Program-made: the position numbers and the translations under genes
Notes under the pieces: model-generated
Seen by the model: the letters and a program-made list of their open reading frames with translations, nothing else
Databases searched by the model: none
What the model was told of the DNA's origin: nothing
Virus record (IMG/VR): IMGVR_UViG_3300031708_000011
Location: 1-29,899 of that record
Direction: 5' to 3' (one strand)
From: a virus
DNA: 29,899 nt
Part shown: positions 790 through 29,089 of the stretch, one piece after another
How positions within the stretch are numbered: position 1 is the first letter of the stretch
How the letters are laid out: every line of letters begins with the position of its first letter

Positions 790-1221
790 TCAGATCAGGG
801 CGGTGACGGCGGATAGGCCGGCTGCGACGGCGAGCACCCCGTAGGTTTCGAGGATCGCCCGCACGCCGGTTTCGGGCCTGAGCCAGGACACCAGCCCGGC
901 GGCGGCGCAGACGAGGACCAGCGCCGGGATGAGCGCTGCGGCGCCGCCGGCGAGCAGGTACGGCGCTGCCGGGATGACGGTGCCGCTGAATGTGGCGGCC
1001 CCGCACGCGAAGGCTGCGAGCCAGTCCCCGGTGCCGCTGGACAGGTACTCGCCCGATGCCATGCCGGTGAACGAGGCGGTGCCGGCGGCGAGCGCTGCCC
1101 GCCAGATCACGGTGCGGGGCTCCCCGGCGACGGCCAGGCCGGCGAGGATGCCGAGGCCGGTGATGATCCCGTCAGCGGCACCGAAGATCACCGGTGCCCG
1201 CCGCCGGCTGGTGTCACGCAT
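790..1221 (-). CDS. Minimal VIT1/CCC1-like membrane protein
   Basis: This 143-residue protein is almost entirely hydrophobic, with about four to five membrane segments. It carries the features of the vacuolar iron transporter family: a VIFGAADGIITG first segment, a MASGEYLS motif, and a later GAATFSGTVIPAAPYLL segment. In full-length VIT/CCC1 proteins a cytoplasmic metal-binding helical region separates the second and third segments. Here the GEYLS motif runs almost directly into the next segment, so that region is missing. Small forms of this kind occur in actinobacteria and their phages; whether they move metal is unknown. The ATG at 1221 overlaps the upstream stop by 8 bases (ATGCGTGA), which supports this start over a longer one within the neighbouring gene. 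It is the last gene of a four-gene minus-strand run. Confidence 0.7.
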   Translation of the reverse strand: MRDTSRRRAPVIFGAADGIITGLGILAGLAVAGEPRTVIWRAALAAGTASFTGMASGEYLSSGTGDWLAAFACGAATFSGTVIPAAPYLLAGGAAALIPALVLVCAAAGLVSWLRPETGVRAILETYGVLAVAAGLSAVTALI

Positions 1222-1783
1222 TGACGAAGGCGCCGTCGCGGATCCAGCCGTGCCATTCACGGGATGGCGTCCGGTCGTCGATCGACGGGTGGACGGTGAT
1301 GCACGGGGGTTCGCCGGTGACATCCCAGTAGGAGCCGATCCGGTTCCCGCCGGCGGAGGCGCGGTCGTTGGTGGACCAGTGGGTGCCGTTCGGGAGGAAG
1401 ACGATCCACGCTGGCGGCCGGCCGGGATGGTCGGCCCATTCGGCTCGGATCATCGCCCCGGGCGGGCCTTCCCACGCTCCGATACCCCACGCGAACCGGT
1501 GGCCGCCGCCCTCATACCACGAATGCTGGATGACCTGCCAGCTGTCGGCGGCGGTGAACTGGCAGCCGCATCCGCACGCAGCGGGCCAGCGGGGATCATC
1601 ATGCGCGATGAGGTCCTCCGGGGTGCGGCGGATGCCATCCGGGTCACGGCCGTACTCCGGTGCGCTCTCGCTGATGACGGCCATCGCATTGTGGTAATGC
1701 TCGCTGCCGCTTTCCCCGTACCGGAACCGGCGCAGCGACACACGGCAGGTGCCGTCCGGTTCCGCGATGAACAGATCCGTCAT
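1214..1783 (-). CDS. Hypothetical protein, 189 aa
   Basis: This is a soluble, Trp-rich protein of 189 residues with no signal peptide or membrane segment. It has a CGCGCQF cluster near residue 70 and several conserved-looking Trp/His stretches, including HSWYEGGGHRF and HPGRPPAWIVFLPNG. The cysteines could bind metal, but the pattern is too short to name a fold. The start at 1783 is preceded by a strong GGAGGGGAG ribosome site, and the 3' end overlaps the VIT-like gene by 8 bases, so the two are probably translated together. I do not recognise a family. Similar Trp-rich proteins are common as unassigned accessory genes in actinobacteriophages. Confidence 0.65.
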   Translation of the reverse strand: MTDLFIAEPDGTCRVSLRRFRYGESGSEHYHNAMAVISESAPEYGRDPDGIRRTPEDLIAHDDPRWPAACGCGCQFTAADSWQVIQHSWYEGGGHRFAWGIGAWEGPPGAMIRAEWADHPGRPPAWIVFLPNGTHWSTNDRASAGGNRIGSYWDVTGEPPCITVHPSIDDRTPSREWHGWIRDGAFVNA

Positions 1784-22259: not shown

Positions 22260-23702
22260 TCAGATGTTGGAGTAGACCCTTGCTGCGCGCCCGACGTACT
22301 TTGCCGCCCTAATTGCGTACGTAGTATCCGTAACGAGGGCGAACGGGAGTGTGTCGGGTGCGGTGACGGTCGGGGCGAGCGGGATGACCTGCATGTCCCG
22401 CGTGTAGGGGCGCACGCCGAAGTCGGCGGTACGCGGGATGAGGTAGAAGTCCTCCGGTGCCAGGCCGGCGGTGACGGTGCCGCCGCTGGTGGACAGGAGC
22501 CGCGGGCCGGTGCCCGCGTTGGTGCCGACGTACGCGGTCGGGCCGGTCGCGCCTGCCGAGTTGGTCTGCAGGTTGGTGCCGGTGTCGATGATGGTCGTGG
22601 TCGCGGTGCCGGTGGTGTCGTACGCATCGACGACACCGAGCAGCGTCTCAGAGTTCGCCGCACCCGACGCCGCGGTCCGGTAGACCTTGTACATGATCGG
22701 CGACGCGCCGTCCGGGAGCCCGGTCGGCGTGGTGAAGGCCAGGCTGATCGTGTTCGTCGCGGCACCTGAGCCTGCCGCCTGGCTCACTTCAGCGCAGGCG
22801 ATGGTCTCCCCGAACCGGGCGACCACAGCGGACACGTAGTACTTGTACGCGGCCGACGCGGCGATGGTGCCGCCGGTCGTCGCCGTCGATCCGGACACGG
22901 TCGACATGGCGTAGGTGCGCGGCGACAGGAACGAGCTCTTGACGAGCGGGATGTCCCTGTAGCTGGGCACGTTGAGTCCGGCGGCGATCTCGACGGTCGG
23001 CGCCTGGAAACGCTGCTGGGACAGGAGCAGCTGCCCGACGCTGGCGACCATGCGCGGGCTCATGACGAACATGAAGTCCGAGCCGATCGGCATCGCCGCG
23101 TTGGTCTCGACCAGGTCGATGACCTCGTCCATGTACCGCAGCACGAACTGGCCCGCGGCCGCGTTGGTGATAACACCAGCGGAGCCGCCGCCGTAGTCCA
23201 TGGCGTTGACGAACGCCGCCGACCCGGTACCTGGCGAGAAATTGGACACCAGGTAGTCGAGGCCGTACGGGATCGGGTAGACGCCATTCGCTGTGGCGGG
23301 GTCGTTACCCCAGATGAACGCGTTCTCGATTGACCACAGCATCGACTGCACGGTGCCGTCGATTTCAAGCTGACGCAGGTCACCCACAAGGTCGCGGGTC
23401 ACCGTCTGGGCGAAGCCAGTTACCGAACCAACCGCCTGGAACAGCCGGATGTTGTAAATGGCCTGCTCGTATGTCGAGTTGCCGATCGGGCGGGCGCCGC
23501 CATCGGTGACGCCGCCCGCATCGGGCCTGGTCACGCGACGGTTGAAGTAGTACTGCGTGCTCCCCCACTGCTTGCTCGGAATGGCACGCAGGAGCGGGGA
23601 ATACCGGCGCTGGTATTCCAGCAGAAGCGGATCGATCTGCTTCTGGATCAACGGCGTTACGGTTGACGCGGCGGTAATTGCTTCCTCAAGCTCTGTAGGC
23701 AT
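22260..23702 (-). CDS. Major capsid protein with Ig-like insertion
   Basis: The start at ATG 23702 has a strong AAGGAGGTG ribosome site. The 480-residue protein has an N-terminal helical arm (MPTELEEAITAAST) and a capsid core from about residue 45 (YYFNRRVTRPDAGG, then TRDLVGDLRQLEIDGT). The later core has MFVMSPRMVASVGQLLLSQQ, and the C-terminal part ends FALVTDTTYAIRAAKYVGRA, as in HK97-fold capsids of actinobacteriophages. Residues about 270-385 form a separate beta module with YKYYVSAVVARFGE and IMYKVYRT, like a fibronectin-III/Ig-like domain, probably exposed on the capsid surface. It follows the protease-scaffold gene and is bounded by strong hairpins on both sides, which points to separate control of its abundance. 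An in-frame upstream extension crosses the hairpins and is rejected. Confidence 0.9.
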   Translation of the reverse strand: MPTELEEAITAASTVTPLIQKQIDPLLLEYQRRYSPLLRAIPSKQWGSTQYYFNRRVTRPDAGGVTDGGARPIGNSTYEQAIYNIRLFQAVGSVTGFAQTVTRDLVGDLRQLEIDGTVQSMLWSIENAFIWGNDPATANGVYPIPYGLDYLVSNFSPGTGSAAFVNAMDYGGGSAGVITNAAAGQFVLRYMDEVIDLVETNAAMPIGSDFMFVMSPRMVASVGQLLLSQQRFQAPTVEIAAGLNVPSYRDIPLVKSSFLSPRTYAMSTVSGSTATTGGTIAASAAYKYYVSAVVARFGETIACAEVSQAAGSGAATNTISLAFTTPTGLPDGASPIMYKVYRTAASGAANSETLLGVVDAYDTTGTATTTIIDTGTNLQTNSAGATGPTAYVGTNAGTGPRLLSTSGGTVTAGLAPEDFYLIPRTADFGVRPYTRDMQVIPLAPTVTAPDTLPFALVTDTTYAIRAAKYVGRAARVYSNI

Positions 23703-23721
23703 TGCACACCTCCTTAGAAAG

Positions 23722-23751
23722 AAAAAGCCCCGCCATTCTTTTGGCGGGGCT
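23722..23751 (-). terminator. Intrinsic terminator before the capsid gene
   Basis: On the minus strand the stem AGCCCCGCC/GGCGGGGCT (9 bp, 8-base loop) is followed directly by TTTTTC and more T. This is a classic intrinsic terminator located between the protease-scaffold gene and the capsid gene, 20 bases before the capsid start codon. Confidence 0.8.
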
Positions 23752-23827
23752 GAAATGTTCGCGGTAAAGCATCTAGTGGCGGGTATTGGTTGCGGGCGGG
23801 TAAGGGAACTCGCGGCGGGCATGACGG

Positions 23828-23896: not shown

Positions 23897-24565
23897 TCAG
23901 GCAGCCGGGGAGGCTGCTGCGGCACTGGCGGCCGCGGCGAGCGCCGCCGGGGTCTGCTGGACCGCGGCGGGTGCCTGCGGGATCAGCTGATCCCACATCT
24001 GGCTGCGGTTGGCCCACAGGTCCTCCGGGGTCTGCGGCTTCTCGCCGCTGCCCCGGTGCTCGCTGCTCATCACCAGGCCCTTGCGCCTGGGCAGGCCGAA
24101 CGCCTCGAGGAGTTCGGGGATCGCGAGGCGCGCTGCTTCGAGGGCGACGTGCTTCGGGTCGACCGTCTCCGCTGCCGGCGCGGCGGCTGGCGCGGTTCCC
24201 TCGGCCGGGGCCGGGGTGCCCGCCGTCTCGGCGGCAGCGGGAGCCGCCGGGGCCTGGGCGGTGATGAGCGGCTTGATGGCTTCGGCGAGAGCGCCGGGAA
24301 GGCCGTCGAGGCTCGCTTTGACTGCTTCGGCGAGAGCGGACACATCAGCGCCGGCCGGCGCTGCGGTTTCGGTGGCGGGCTTGGCCTCGGCCGCTGGCGT
24401 GGTCTCGGCGGCGGGCTTGCCGGGGAGTGCCTTGGCGATCGCGGTCTCGACGGCGGCGCCGATCACCGGTCCGAGCGCGGCGGCGAACGCGGTGAGCGCG
24501 TCGGTGCTGATTGCTGGTGCGGCCGGTGCTGGCGTGGTCTCCGGCGCAGCGGGCTGGTCGGGCAT
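23897..24565 (-). CDS. Probable nested scaffold protein from internal start
   Basis: Within the polyprotein gene, ATG 24565 (residue 478, MPDQPAAPETTP) is preceded by AGAGGAGA with about seven bases of spacing, far better than expected by chance. The same-frame product would be 222 residues, Ala/Pro-rich with helical segments (ISTDALTAFAAALGPVIGAA, later ALAEAVKASLDGLPGALAEA). Lambda makes Nu3 scaffold from an internal start in gene C in the same way. That this phage does so is inference. Confidence 0.55.
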   Translation of the reverse strand: MPDQPAAPETTPAPAAPAISTDALTAFAAALGPVIGAAVETAIAKALPGKPAAETTPAAEAKPATETAAPAGADVSALAEAVKASLDGLPGALAEAIKPLITAQAPAAPAAAETAGTPAPAEGTAPAAAPAAETVDPKHVALEAARLAIPELLEAFGLPRRKGLVMSSEHRGSGEKPQTPEDLWANRSQMWDQLIPQAPAAVQQTPAALAAAASAAAASPAA

Positions 24566-25996
24566 GGTTGTCTCCTCTGTGGTGGAGTCCGGCGCCGGAG
24601 CGGCGTCGTCGGTGGCGGGGGTGACGTCAGCAGGTTCGGCTGCTGGCGGGTCATGCGCGGCGGCTGGCGCCGGGGTGGTCTCGGTGGTGGCGTTGCGGCG
24701 GGCGACCGCCGCGGCGACCTTGCGCGGGTCCGGGGTGGCACCGCTGGTGATGGTGAAGGACAGCGGGACGCCTTCGGTGGCGGTCGTGGTGACGTTGTAG
24801 GTGCGGGCCTCCGTGTCGTCGGGGCCTACGGCGGTGAGGTCGCCGCCGGCGAGATCCTCGCTGGTGCCGTTGCCGCCGGGTGCGTCGATGTCGCCGTCCT
24901 CATCCGGGTCGAGGGCTTTGATGGCCTGGAGGGCGGCGGCCATCGCCGCCTGGGCGATCGCGGGCATGTCGGCGGCGTCGATCCCGTCGTAGGCGGAGAC
25001 GCTGACCGTCAAGGGGCCGTTGAACGCGGAGATGCTGAAACCGCAGCATCCGGCGGCCGCCCATTCGGTGACCGCGCCGGTCGTCGTCTCGCCGAGCGCA
25101 CCGCTGCCCGTGAAGCTGGAACTGGCGGCGGCGGTCTTGATCCCGAATTTCTTCGCCGCGGCGTTGATCTTCGACTTGATGGAGGCGAGCTGCTGGGAGG
25201 TGTACTTGCCGGCGTTCTTCGCCTTCGCGATATAGGCCAGAGCCGCGCGGACGTGGGCGATCGTGTCAAGGGGGTACCTGGCCTTGCCGTCCTTCTGCAG
25301 GCCCGGGTCGGCGTAGGTGACATCCCCGTACGGTTTCTTCGGGTCCTTCGCCTCGCTGGCGCCGGCTGTGGCGCAGGTGACGCACAGGGCGCCGTCGTCA
25401 TCCAGGACATGCTCACGGCTGTCACCGTCCAGGCCGGGCGGCGGGGTATCCTCGGTGATGGCGTGCGCGGTGATCGTCTCGGTCACGATGTGCCTCCCCT
25501 GCACGGCGGATTCCTGGCCGCGCTGCTCGTTGCTGCTGACAGTGCGGATCCGGGCGGCGAGGACCCCCGGTGAGCCGGTGAAGTCGATCGCGTCGACCTC
25601 CAGGTCTTCGCCGACCTCGACCTGTTCCCCTTCGTGGTCTACGTGGCGGACATCGCCGAGCCACCACCCGAAAATGGATGTGGAGTCCAGGAGAGGGTTC
25701 TTGCGGTCCTTCACCAGGGACCACAGGTCATGCCCGGCCTGGGTGGCGGTGTTGAGGACTGCCCGGTAGGCCGCCTCGCCAGTTGCCGGGTCGACCTGGA
25801 CGCTGGTGACCCGCCCGACGATCCGCAGCGAGTCATCGCCGGCGTCGTGGTGGGTGCGCATGCTGATCGGGAGACCATCGGTGTCGGCGATCCGGGCCTG
25901 CATGCGGGCGGCGGTCTTGGCGATCTGCTCGCGGGTGTACAGCCGCTTGTTGCGGCTGACGCCGGGGGCGAGCATGGTGCCGGTGATCGACGGCAT
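23897..25996 (-). CDS. Capsid maturation protease / DUF6582-like / scaffold polyprotein
   Basis: This is a 699-residue protein starting at ATG 25996, which shares one base with the previous stop (TGATG). Residues 1-150 resemble a T4 gp21-like prohead protease: RNKRLYTREQ, His49-His50 in MRTHHDAG, Ser105 or Ser107 in LDSTSIFGWW, and VDAIDFTGSPGV near 135-145. Catalytic assignment is inferred. Residues about 217-286 match the DUF6582 pattern (KKPYGDVTYADPG, KARYPLDTIAHVRAA, then a Lys-rich helix ending AAKKFGI). The rest is Ala/Pro/Glu/Thr-rich, as in scaffold proteins, and ends in helical LWANRSQMWDQLIP. A strong internal start at 24565 probably yields free scaffold. Its neighbours are the MuF-type protein upstream and the capsid gene downstream. 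Confidence 0.75.
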   Translation of the reverse strand: MPSITGTMLAPGVSRNKRLYTREQIAKTAARMQARIADTDGLPISMRTHHDAGDDSLRIVGRVTSVQVDPATGEAAYRAVLNTATQAGHDLWSLVKDRKNPLLDSTSIFGWWLGDVRHVDHEGEQVEVGEDLEVDAIDFTGSPGVLAARIRTVSSNEQRGQESAVQGRHIVTETITAHAITEDTPPPGLDGDSREHVLDDDGALCVTCATAGASEAKDPKKPYGDVTYADPGLQKDGKARYPLDTIAHVRAALAYIAKAKNAGKYTSQQLASIKSKINAAAKKFGIKTAAASSSFTGSGALGETTTGAVTEWAAAGCCGFSISAFNGPLTVSVSAYDGIDAADMPAIAQAAMAAALQAIKALDPDEDGDIDAPGGNGTSEDLAGGDLTAVGPDDTEARTYNVTTTATEGVPLSFTITSGATPDPRKVAAAVARRNATTETTPAPAAAHDPPAAEPADVTPATDDAAPAPDSTTEETTMPDQPAAPETTPAPAAPAISTDALTAFAAALGPVIGAAVETAIAKALPGKPAAETTPAAEAKPATETAAPAGADVSALAEAVKASLDGLPGALAEAIKPLITAQAPAAPAAAETAGTPAPAEGTAPAAAPAAETVDPKHVALEAARLAIPELLEAFGLPRRKGLVMSSEHRGSGEKPQTPEDLWANRSQMWDQLIPQAPAAVQQTPAALAAAASAAAASPAA

Positions 25997-26439
25997 CAGG
26001 ACCGCCCCCACAAGCTGATCTCGCAGTCAGCGAACGACGGGGTGCCGCCGGTGAGCGTCCACTGGACCTGGACGAGCCCGGGGATGACATGCTCGTTGGC
26101 GGTGCCGGGACCGATGCACAGGTCGGTGGTGGCGCCTTCGGCGGTGACCGCCGCGGTGGTGCCGAGCAGGACCCCGCTGCCGGCCTGCTGCCCGGGCAGG
26201 TCAGCGGCGTACCCGGCGACGGATACGGTGAGCGACCCGGATGCGGCGCCGCCGATGTACACCATGAGGACCAGGTGCCGGTAGGGCCACGCGGCCAGCA
26301 GGGGCGTCCCGGAGTTCCCGGATGCGGCGATCGCGGGGCCGGGGCCTGGGGTGGCGAGGAGGTTGTTCCAGATCGGGGTCAGTTCCCCGGCGGGGTTCTG
26401 GAGCGACCCGACCGGGACGACCATGGGGTTGTGGGACAT
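25996..26439 (-). CDS. Small head-module protein, 147 aa
   Basis: The start is ATG 26439, which shares one base with the upstream stop (TGATG) and has AGGAGG upstream. A longer frame is a shadow. The product begins MSHNPMVVPVGSLQNPAGEL and is a beta-rich domain with HLVLMVYIGGAASGSLTVSV and an ending VQWTLTGGTPSFADCEISLW. The strand pattern resembles small jelly-roll or Ig-like modules. Its position between the MuF-type protein and the protease suggests a head decoration or portal-associated protein, but nothing confirms it. Confidence 0.65.
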   Translation of the reverse strand: MSHNPMVVPVGSLQNPAGELTPIWNNLLATPGPGPAIAASGNSGTPLLAAWPYRHLVLMVYIGGAASGSLTVSVAGYAADLPGQQAGSGVLLGTTAAVTAEGATTDLCIGPGTANEHVIPGLVQVQWTLTGGTPSFADCEISLWGRS

Positions 26440-27941
26440 CAGCCGCCTCCTGTTTTGAGGTAGGGCGTGAACACGGTGGCGGGCAGCTCGTCGGCTGGCT
26501 CGGGTGTGCACCGGCAGCCCACGTGGTCCGGGCACGGGGGGAACTGGTCCGGCGGGTACGGGCCGTCGTCTGAGAGCCCTTCGCATTCGGCGCAGACCCT
26601 GCCGTCTCCCGCAGTGACCCAGTTGAGGAGTGCTACGCGCTGGTCGCGGTACAGGGCGATGGCGCCTTTGGTGATGGCACCGGAGATCGCGTGGTCCAGG
26701 AGGGTGGTGACGGCGCGGATGCTGGTGCTGCCCGCGACGTGCATGACGGCGTCGAGCATGTCCTGGTAGGTGGCGCCGTCCTCAGCGAGTTTCGCGAGGA
26801 CCCGGCCGAGGTCTGACGCGCACCCGCCGATGATCTTGTGGACCCATTCGTCGCCCATGCCGGGCAGGCTGGGCAGGCCGGCGAGTGCCTCGTACGCGGC
26901 GGTGAACATGACGTCGATGTCGAGTTCGCTGGCTGCTATCCCGGCGGTCTCGGCGGCGTTGATCCGCGCCCCGGTCGATCCTTCAGCCAGGCCGGCGCGG
27001 AGGGCGGCGGCGATCGCCGCGGCGAGCTGCTGGTAGCGGGGGTCGTCGAGGATGCCGTACAGCCAGGCGGCGGCCAGGGATGCGGCTTCTTTCCGCCGGT
27101 CCTTGCCGCCCGGTGTCGCGGTCTCGCCGTGCAGGCCGGCCAGTGCCCGGTACTTGGATACGAGGGACCGGGCGTTGAGTGCGTGGATGAGGGTGCGCCA
27201 CTGGCCGGTGACGGTCTCGGTGCTGGTCTTTATGAGCTCGTCGCGGCGCCGGTAGATGACCGCCCACGATCCTTCGAGGGAGCCGAGCTTGAGGGCGGTT
27301 TCGAGGACACCGGGCTGGGTGGCGTGCCCGGCTGCCCATGCGGCGGCGGCGTGGCAGCCGGCGAGGACCCGGGGGGTGAACGGGCCGCCACTTGCCGCCC
27401 ACCCGGCCATGTACGCCTGCCGGGCGTACGGGGTGATCGGGTGGGCGGTCTCGGTGAGCCGGAACGGCAGGTTCGTGCGCTCTTTACCCCAGACGACGGC
27501 GAGGTGGGTGAAGGTGACGGGCCGGGCGGGGAGCCGCCACAGCGGGTCCGGGTCGTCGGCATCCTGGTAGCGGAGCGTGAGGTGCGGCGTGTACCCGTGC
27601 TCACGCGGGATTTCTATCCCGGCGCCGGCCAGGGCGGTGCGGGCGGCACCGCGGAGGTCTTCGAGGCCGGCGGAGTCGATGAGGGCGACGATGACGTCAC
27701 TGGCCCCGCCGGTGAACCGGGCGTGGCCGCTGACCGCACCTCGGACGGGTGCCCGGTCGAGGAGGGTCTCGGCGGCGGCGGTGAACTTGGTGAGGTCGAC
27801 GTCGGCGGCGTCGCCGAGGTAGGCGACGGTGACGTGCATTTCTGCGGCGGGGAGCCCGCCGGGGACGGCGAGGTCTCCGGCGAGGCTGGGCGGCGGGTAG
27901 AGGGCGAGCATGCATCCGCTGCTGTAATCCGGCTGCCCCAC
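26439..27941 (-). CDS. 2H-phosphoesterase fused to MuF-type minor head protein
   Basis: This is a 500-residue two-part protein. Residues about 8-160 carry the two signature motifs of the 2H phosphoesterase (LigT/2'-5' RNA ligase-like) superfamily, HVT at 36-38 in EMHVTVAYLGD and HLT at 120-122 in YTPHLTLRYQD, separated by 84 residues and flanked by the expected hydrophobic strands. Residues about 165-480 are helical like phage Mu F-type minor head proteins and end with a Cys-rich motif: Cys451, Cys454, His474, Cys477, Cys479. The start is GTG 27941 with GGGGGTG upstream. MuF-type proteins sit inside the capsid and can be injected, so the enzyme may enter the cell with DNA. Substrates could be cyclic-phosphate RNA or cyclic oligonucleotides; this is not shown by sequence. 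It is the first minus-strand gene of the late operon visible here. Confidence 0.8.
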   Translation of the reverse strand: MGQPDYSSGCMLALYPPPSLAGDLAVPGGLPAAEMHVTVAYLGDAADVDLTKFTAAAETLLDRAPVRGAVSGHARFTGGASDVIVALIDSAGLEDLRGAARTALAGAGIEIPREHGYTPHLTLRYQDADDPDPLWRLPARPVTFTHLAVVWGKERTNLPFRLTETAHPITPYARQAYMAGWAASGGPFTPRVLAGCHAAAAWAAGHATQPGVLETALKLGSLEGSWAVIYRRRDELIKTSTETVTGQWRTLIHALNARSLVSKYRALAGLHGETATPGGKDRRKEAASLAAAWLYGILDDPRYQQLAAAIAAALRAGLAEGSTGARINAAETAGIAASELDIDVMFTAAYEALAGLPSLPGMGDEWVHKIIGGCASDLGRVLAKLAEDGATYQDMLDAVMHVAGSTSIRAVTTLLDHAISGAITKGAIALYRDQRVALLNWVTAGDGRVCAECEGLSDDGPYPPDQFPPCPDHVGCRCTPEPADELPATVFTPYLKTGGG

Positions 27942-28019: not shown

Positions 28020-28226
28020 GTGAGACGTGATGCGATAGACCGGACCGAGCGGCGTTTTGAGGAAGCAGACTCCCTGGACCGTCTCGCAGGCCGGATCGGC
28101 CGCGGCGGCCGTCAGCTCACCGGCCGGACCCGCCGCTCCGTGCAAGCCAGGTCGGCCCGGATCGCCCGCGGCGCATGCCGGGACATGGCCGCCTACGCCC
28201 GCCACGGCATGCAAGACCCCGCCTAG
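28020..28226 (+). CDS. Small basic protein in plus-strand cassette, 68 aa
   Basis: The start is GTG 28020, preceded by AAGGAGAG. The product is rich in Arg and Ala, with RRDAIDRTERRFEEADSLDR at the N-terminus and Gly/Arg/Ser repeats after it. No membrane segment is present. It is the first gene of the P3 unit and lies 25 bases upstream of the DUF2786-like gene. A nucleic-acid-binding role is possible from its charge. No family is recognised. Confidence 0.5.
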   Translation: MRRDAIDRTERRFEEADSLDRLAGRIGRGGRQLTGRTRRSVQARSARIARGACRDMAAYARHGMQDPA

Positions 28227-28251
28227 ACCCACTACAGGAGAGGTAAGAACC

Positions 28252-28981
28252 GTGACCACTGAACCATCAACCACCCTGCTCGACCGGGTACGGAAACTGC
28301 TGGCCAAGGCCGAGGCGGCAGGTGTCACCCCGCCTGAGGCCGAGGCGCTGACCGCCAAGGCGGCCGAGCTGATGGCGCGGTACGGCATCGACCGGGCGAT
28401 GCTGGCCGCGTCGCAGCCGGGAACCGACAAGCCGGGCAGCCGCGTCATCGACGTCCCGAACCCGTGGGCGCAGGTCCGGGCGCACCTGCTGTCCGGGGTG
28501 GCCGGGGCGATGCGCTGCCAGTGCATCCTGCTCAACGCCGACGGGCCGGGAGCGCGGGTGCACGTATTCGGCTACGCGTCCGACCTGGAACGGGCCGACA
28601 TCCTCTACACGTCGCTGCTGCTGCAGATGGCGCACGGGCTGACCGCTGCGTACATGCCCGCCCGGGTATCCAGCGTCCGCGCTTGGCGGCGGTCCTGGCT
28701 GCTGGGCTTCGTCGCGGCTGTCGTCGCCAGGATCAAGGCAGCGGAGGAACGGGCAGCGTCCGCGCACGAGGCGGAGCACCGGCCGGGCCCGAGCACGGCC
28801 GCTGGTGCTCGCCGACCGGTCGGTCGTCATCCGGCAGCAGATGCAGGAGGCCTACCCGGTGACCAGGCAGGCCAGGATCACCTACACCGGGCGGGGCTAC
28901 CAGGACGGCTACAGCCAGGGGCAGCGCGCCGATATCGGGCAGGGCCGGGTGGCGCAGCACAGGGCGCTCAGCGGCGGCTGA
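28252..28981 (+). CDS. DUF2786/DUF7168-like protein, frame broken near 28795
   Basis: The start is GTG 28252 with GGAGAGG about eight bases upstream. Residues 9-50 match the DUF2786 pattern (LLDRVRKLLAKAEAAGVTPP, then LMARYGIDRAML). A second domain follows with PWAQVRAHLLSGVAGAMRCQ and ADILYTSLLLQMAHGL, as in proteins of this type, which I recall as DUF7168. After about residue 180 the frame loses protein-like composition and continues to 29064. The family-like ending, which reads LVLADRSVVIRQQMQEAYPV, is in the next frame and stops at TGA 28981. One extra base near 28787-28800 would explain this. The gene is followed by a good terminator hairpin. No biochemical function is known. Confidence 0.65.
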
Positions 28982-29005
28982 TTTGCCAGGTGCGCGCTTC
29001 ACGGG

Positions 29006-29041
29006 AAGGCCGCACCCCCGGTTCACCAGGGGTGCGGCCTT
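29006..29041 (+). terminator. Rho-independent-like terminator after the DUF2786-like gene
   Basis: A perfect 13-bp stem AAGGCCGCACCCC with a 10-base loop lies 24 bases after TGA 28981 and is followed by TTCC on the plus strand. The stem is symmetrical, so it could stop transcription from both sides. Confidence 0.75.
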
Positions 29042-29060
29042 TCCGTGCACGTGCGCCTGC

Positions 29061-29089
29061 TTGACGCCGGCAATGCACCTGAGTAGTGT
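29061..29089 (+). promoter_or_regulatory. Plus-strand promoter P4 (TTGACG-N17-TAGTGT)
   Basis: TTGACG at 29061-29066 and TAGTGT at 29084-29089 are separated by 17 bases and followed by TGACATTG. It lies right after the terminator at 29006-29041 and starts the transcription unit at the right edge. Confidence 0.7.

Follow-up and report, generated by a model that had tools for sequence, protein, structure and literature searches.

A 2H phosphoesterase domain fused to a MuF-type minor head protein: a putative virion-delivered enzyme with relatives in actinophage head modules

In the IMG/VR record IMGVR_UViG_3300031708_000011, a 500-residue minor head protein joins an N-terminal 2H phosphoesterase domain, apparently catalytically intact by its sequence, to a C-terminal MuF-type part. 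The record is linear, and the stretch analysed here, referred to as the window, covers its positions 1 to 29,899 and is probably a fragment. We hypothesize, at a probability of about 0.6, that this is a MuF head protein with an active accessory 2H enzyme, which is packaged, ejected with the DNA and cleaves a host RNA or nucleotide as a counter-defence measure.

Fusions of 2H to MuF or portal domains were described by Iyer et al. 2017, who proposed RNase action or the destruction of immune nucleotides (PMC5512222); packaging and injection were again inferred by Iyer et al. 2022, with SMODS, cyclic mononucleotide and CRISPR systems named (PMC9503650). As far as the relevant passages of these papers go, both the fusion type and the counter-immunity idea are thus already published, and the window gene is a well-supported new example, with the same two domains in one head polypeptide and the same proposal of packaging, injection and action on a nucleotide or RNA. 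That work is computational, and the passages concerned (PMC5512222, PMC9503650) cover neither the actinophage clade nor MuF homologues lacking 2H, nor the repeated gain and loss of the domain. Added here are that clade, the constancy of its slot across unrelated head modules, and the repeated gain and loss of 2H on one MuF backbone.

The gene, its MuF-type part and the head operon

The features of the gene and its neighbourhood are as follows.

26439..27941, minus strand: 2H-MuF minor head protein gene, 500 aa, GTG start; homologues share the start
27462..27941, minus strand: 2H phosphoesterase domain, residues 1-160 (PF13563, AlphaFold, LigT/CPDase folds)
27828..27836, minus strand: first catalytic motif HVT, residues 36-38 (sequence and alignment)
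27576..27584, minus strand: second catalytic motif HLT, residues 120-122 (sequence and alignment)
26637..27449, minus strand: helical MuF-type region, about residues 165-435 (all-helical model, minor capsid/head morphogenesis fold matches)
26508..26594, minus strand: C-terminal CxxC...HxxCxC motif, residues 450-478 (sequence; conserved in full-length homologues)
26446..26451, minus strand: AGGAGG ribosome-binding site for the next gene, within the 3' end of the 2H-MuF gene (sequence)
25996..26439, minus strand: next gene, about 147 aa; its start overlaps the 2H-MuF stop (TGATG)
23897..26011, minus strand: head maturation protease-like protein with DUF6582 (E=1.8e-15)
22260..23822, minus strand: major capsid protein (PHROG_752 major head protein, E=1.3e-18; SU10_MCP)

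The sequence-only reading had placed an open reading frame at 26439-27941 without stating a strand; the frame is real and its coordinates hold, on the minus strand, where it runs from 27941 to 26439 over 500 codons and closes with a TGA stop codon. Full-length homologues with an identical start and architecture, at 38-48% identity, show that it is not a chance frame. Read on the plus strand, the interval contains internal stops in frame, and the open reading frames of that strand gave no matches that were pursued.

The MuF-type part spans residues ~165-485; in the model, helices make up residues 170-433, after which comes a small beta and Cys/His element. Its identification from the letters alone as a minor head part with a C-terminal Cys/His motif is borne out by the CxxC...HxxCxC residues C450, C453, H473, C476 and C478, which vary little or not at all among 17 homologues, by the helical model, and by PHROG head-morphogenesis families, which match the window protein at E~1e-5. 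The full-length model also matches annotated minor capsid or head morphogenesis proteins (E 2e-5 to 5e-4). On the window copy the curated profiles score below their cut-offs (PF04233, E=0.039, 15.1 against 29.6; TIGR01641, 18.6 against 39.65), their sub-threshold matches ending at the Cys/His motif, and the best PF04233 match in the family has E=4.8e-4; the assignment is therefore "MuF-type", resting on motif, fold and gene position, and not that of a curated MuF member. A weak match to Cas11e (E=0.09) in the helical region, the sole one there from a defence-system library, was taken as chance.

VIP2 toxin-MuF fusions are known in actinophages (PMC7302621). MuF polymorphic toxins resemble the window protein in that a MuF head domain carries an enzyme; however, the toxin lies C-terminal to MuF in the part of PMC12226406 that describes them, whereas here the enzyme is N-terminal and MuF C-terminal, and because of this reversed domain order the protein was not placed in that class.

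Since the TGATG overlap joins the 2H-MuF stop to the next start, with AGGAGG just before it, the 2H-MuF gene is the first of a translationally coupled series; the genes upstream of it point the opposite way. Searches of the roughly 147-aa product of 25996..26439 against Pfam and PHROG profiles found no family match. The PHROG_207 head maturation protease profile is weak on the product of 23897..26011 (E 0.31) and reaches 2e-5 in the homologue from the related locus L019; this DUF6582-bearing protein is most likely the prohead protease. Tail genes come after the capsid gene. Neither a portal nor a terminase was recognised among the window genes scanned, in which only the downstream side of the portal-protease slot is visible. 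Two further genes of the window may be recorded: a DUF2786-DUF7168 protein at 28057-29064 (plus strand), divergent from the head operon and with a C-terminal part that looks frame-shifted, and a 177-aa open reading frame at 790-1323 (minus strand) with a VIT1 (VIT family) match at E=8.6e-9, odd for a phage tail region.

The 2H domain and its possible substrates

Both HxT motifs that had been read at residues 36-38 and 120-122 are present in the sequence, and the PF13563 (2_5_RNA_ligase2) profile matches the window protein at E=9.1e-11, with 42.5 bits against a curated cut-off of 27 (hmmscan), as well as 17 of the 17 family members. None of the 25 aligned 2H domains departs from H36, T38 or H120, while residue 122 is T in 19 of them and S in 6; no loss of the HxT residues was seen in close relatives. 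The HxT/HxT pattern, with HxT or HxS as the second motif, is kept in 24 of 24 aligned relatives and in the majority of the more distant GenBank proteins examined; one fusion, that of Abt2graduatex2, has HVA as its second motif. Prediction of the structure and comparison with Acb1 and LigT, as the sequence-only reading had proposed, gave a 2H core (AlphaFold mean pLDDT 93.2; input alignment of 25 sequences) best matched by LigT/CPDase. The nearest viral predicted structures are actinophage proteins, several of them from head modules, with query TM 0.75-0.87 for the best. The fold alone does not reveal the substrate, because it is common to 2H enzymes whose substrates range from RNA 2',3'-cyclic phosphates to cyclic dinucleotides and 2'-5' oligoadenylate; for the window protein, an immune nucleotide (a cyclic oligonucleotide or a 2'-5'-type one) and an RNA 2',3'-cyclic phosphate end appear about equally likely.

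Against the PDB, Foldseek assigns the 2H model to LigT enzymes with probability 1.00, and Thermus 1iuh, E. coli LigT and Deinococcus CPDase 5h7e head the solved folds (query TM 0.57-0.67; 0.65-0.67 for the Thermus and Deinococcus LigT/CPDase enzymes), followed by Usb1 (0.58-0.63). The best matches are thus enzymes that act on RNA 2',3'-cyclic phosphates, and a virion-delivered 2H enzyme might act on RNA, opening the 2',3'-cyclic phosphate ends that defence ribonucleases, namely anticodon nucleases and toxins, leave behind, or trimming RNA in the manner of Usb1, with immune messengers untouched. Iyer et al. 2017 likewise offered an RNase reading, on the ground that RNase domains (PBECR) occur in the same MuF/portal fusions (PMC5512222). 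The LigT profile (E=0.003, hmmscan) is below its own cut-off, and TIGR02258 (RNA 2',3'-cyclic phosphodiesterase) gives a sub-threshold match of 24.7 bits, far from its equivalog cut-off of 65.7, for which reason the protein was not filed as a true LigT. The LigT/ThpR enzymes (1iuh, 5h7e, 5ldm) share the fold and the HxT tetrad with the window domain but only 18-20% identity, and they are free-standing cellular enzymes. Moreover, neither the window nor the listed loci showed a recognisable true ligase, kinase or phosphatase partner beside the gene, and the same passages of Iyer et al. (PMC5512222) report 2H domains as never seen with RNA ligases. Action on RNA in place of immune messengers is a possibility that we put forward only tentatively.

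The sequence-only reading had drawn a parallel to the Acb1-type anti-CBASS enzymes of phages. What stands of it is the likeness common to the whole 2H superfamily: the Acb1 profile PF23474 gives E=1.3e-4 and 22.1 bits, under its curated cut-off of 27 (hmmscan), and the structural similarity to Acb1 of phages BCSR5 and FBB1 (query TM 0.46-0.56) is lower than that to LigT, so that the fold leans towards LigT/CPDase as far as the model goes. An Acb1-like, virion-borne enzyme degrading CBASS-type cyclic oligonucleotides would be in keeping with the phage 2H fold and HxT tetrad, with the matches of the Acb1 profile to 16 of 17 family members at E<0.1, and with a short similarity around the second histidine, where the motif blocks of the window protein and T4 Acb1 align as YTPHLTLRY against YTPHITLSY. 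Acb1 stacks bases with the aromatic residues Y12, W74, F107 and W147, and also uses E141 (PMC9117128). These aromatics have no clear match in the window protein: the alignment to T4 gp57B extends over residues 25-119 only, with F107 opposite E114 and W74 adjoining F76. Because of the profile score and the base-contact residues, the protein was not filed as Acb1, and we regard anti-CBASS action of this kind as rather doubtful. Acb1 itself is free-standing.

Among the further matches are viral 2',5'-phosphodiesterases, including the domain of rotavirus VP3, which has the 2H fold (5af2, TM 0.53), although the virus and the capsid partner are unrelated, the identity is 9%, and the substrate of VP3 is known. 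VP3 is a virion-resident protein.

Relatives in the portal-protease slot

Close relatives in IMG/VR and genome collections, whose loci, like those of the GenBank phages, are designated by L-numbers (L019, L024 and L033, for example), comprise 2H-MuF fusions and solo 2H genes of 179-197 aa, the latter forming one group in the 2H tree (branch support 99/96). Some fusion loci lie in Streptomyces and Kitasatospora genomes and were taken as prophages. The gene order in L019 is TerL-portal-[2H-MuF]-protease-capsid, the capsid gene being assigned by position, and TerL and portal were likewise recognised ahead of the 2H-MuF gene in L033; L024 has portal-[solo 2H]-ClpP-like protease-capsid. L019 and L024 are different head modules with one common slot for 2H. 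A search of GenBank phages with the MuF part alone found only psiM100, weakly, and the family therefore occurs mainly in uncultured phages and Streptomyces/Kitasatospora prophages.

Related 2H domains are found in 67 to 119 GenBank phage records, from Gordonia, Arthrobacter, Streptomyces, Mycobacterium, Brevibacterium and a few other hosts, mostly under the label "RNA ligase". This appears to be a mere label taken over from the Pfam name of a 2H phosphoesterase, and a literal RNA ligase was accordingly set aside; the label is misleading for head-module 2H genes, and some copies go under the names aldolase, portal or capsid protease. The annotated genomes of ten phages were examined (DalanDe, Abt2graduatex2, Salgado, Cantare, Phrappuccino, Ottawa, Pleione, Pupper, GMA6 and GTE6), and in these the 2H lies downstream of the portal gene and usually ahead of protease or capsid genes; the GMA6 portal is as named in the part of PMC4524720 that covers it, and for GTE6 the upstream structural protein was taken as the portal. 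The genes of Gordonia phages GMA6 and DalanDe, Arthrobacter phage Salgado, Streptomyces phage Abt2graduatex2 and the Mycobacterium cluster C phages resemble the window domain in structure (the TM range given above for the best), in mostly keeping HxT and in following the portal, but share only about 24-34% identity, over the 2H alone, and differ in their partners: an XkdF protease, MuF ahead of 2H, or none. Salgado and Ottawa carry a 2H-XkdF protease fusion, and in Abt2graduatex2 MuF-2H stands within a 1,250-aa protease fusion. Fusions of 2H with MuF, for which a survey had been suggested beforehand, were seen as 2H-MuF, MuF-2H-protease and portal-Nudix-2H-MuF. An effector domain on a packaged-type head domain is seen both in the window protein and in the last of these, from L082.

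It is conceivable that the enzyme works late, in the producing cell only, and that its place among the head genes is a by-product of gene order. A late-gene position is by itself no proof of packaging, and the relatives include solo genes as well as genes located elsewhere than between portal and capsid, as in two large phages, where Finch gp221 is away from the head genes and Stormageddon gp17 directly follows the capsid gene. However, a 2H domain joined in several arrangements to MuF, portal or protease polypeptides could hardly escape incorporation, and we consider such late action improbable.

Several neighbouring or fused genes in these loci are of separate interest. The L082 polypeptide (L082:492-5744; 1,751 aa, portal-Nudix-2H-MuF-like) has a NUDIX match at E=1.8e-16 and a ParB-like stretch by eye. 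GMA2 Orf10 (L047:7981-10629; 883 aa) has a C-terminal 2H preceded, by eye, by an ADP-ribosyltransferase-like stretch; it is recorded as "putative structural protein", and the Gordonia phage study ran virion mass spectrometry, according to the parts of PMC4524720 concerned, which makes Orf10 a lead on virion presence rather than evidence of it. Directly after the 2H gene of GMA6 lies Orf13 (L012:7714-8829), a VIP2-type ADP-ribosyltransferase in the same source (PMC4524720), which places two putative injected enzymes side by side after the portal. In Mycobacterium phage Pleione (L046) and Gordonia phage Pupper (L049), a ThyX-like thymidylate synthase gene stands between portal and 2H.

Gain and loss of the 2H domain on the MuF backbone

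A search with the MuF part retrieved close homologues that start at the MuF part (L053, L054, L058/L059, L061, L065 and L070), and no 2H was found anywhere in these loci in six frames. On the MuF tree, the presence and absence of 2H requires five changes, at least four of them forced by well-supported branches; by these sequence comparisons, 2H was gained or lost at least four times on one MuF backbone. The 2H is at the same time the most conserved region of the full-length family, with a mean pairwise identity of 0.63 against 0.39-0.49 elsewhere and 37 of the 54 invariant positions. Because MuF homologues without it exist across the same tree, the domain is dispensable for the head. That it comes and goes, yet keeps its active site and the highest conservation, speaks, on sequence grounds, more for an accessory enzyme delivered by the virion than for a structural part. 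That the 2H is an element of head structure or assembly, with catalysis irrelevant, would suit its place in a head protein and its conservation there, but is highly improbable in view of the 2H-less homologues, the retained catalytic residues and the free-standing occurrence of the same 2H clade in other head modules.

As an accessory, virion-delivered enzyme, the 2H-MuF protein would be made together with the head operon, and its MuF part, judging by MuF biology and gene position, would build it into the head near the portal. The protein, or the 2H part alone, could then enter the cell with the DNA, where 2H may act on a small RNA or nucleotide made by the host, cleaving a phosphodiester or cyclic phosphate within the first minutes of infection, as a possible counter-defence step. 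A more specific form of this proposal, in which a swappable capsid-borne 2H destroys a CBASS-, CRISPR- or other nucleotide signal before phage expression, its loss and regain tracking host defences, is speculative; were it true, the domain would be the phage counterpart to the phosphodiesterase domain of rotavirus VP3.

To our knowledge, Acb1 and the other known phage nucleases that attack immune nucleotides are free-standing proteins made after infection begins; a head-borne enzyme, if this is what the 2H-MuF protein is, would act from the moment of injection. With activity on immune signals, a published prediction would become a demonstrated delivery route, and activity on RNA ends would amount to head-delivered RNA repair. 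The family is a good test bed, as natural MuF homologues with and without 2H permit comparison within the same head, and many of the relatives belong to culturable actinobacteriophages whose genes carry no label other than "RNA ligase".

In the 2H-less loci, the portal-MuF interval looks like an insertion hot spot of the head operon, since it is occupied by endonuclease genes of two kinds, GIY-YIG in L054 (L054:4848-5936) and HNH in L065 (L065:5100-6008), and a close copy of the GIY-YIG gene was recognised by eye at L058:4937-5941.
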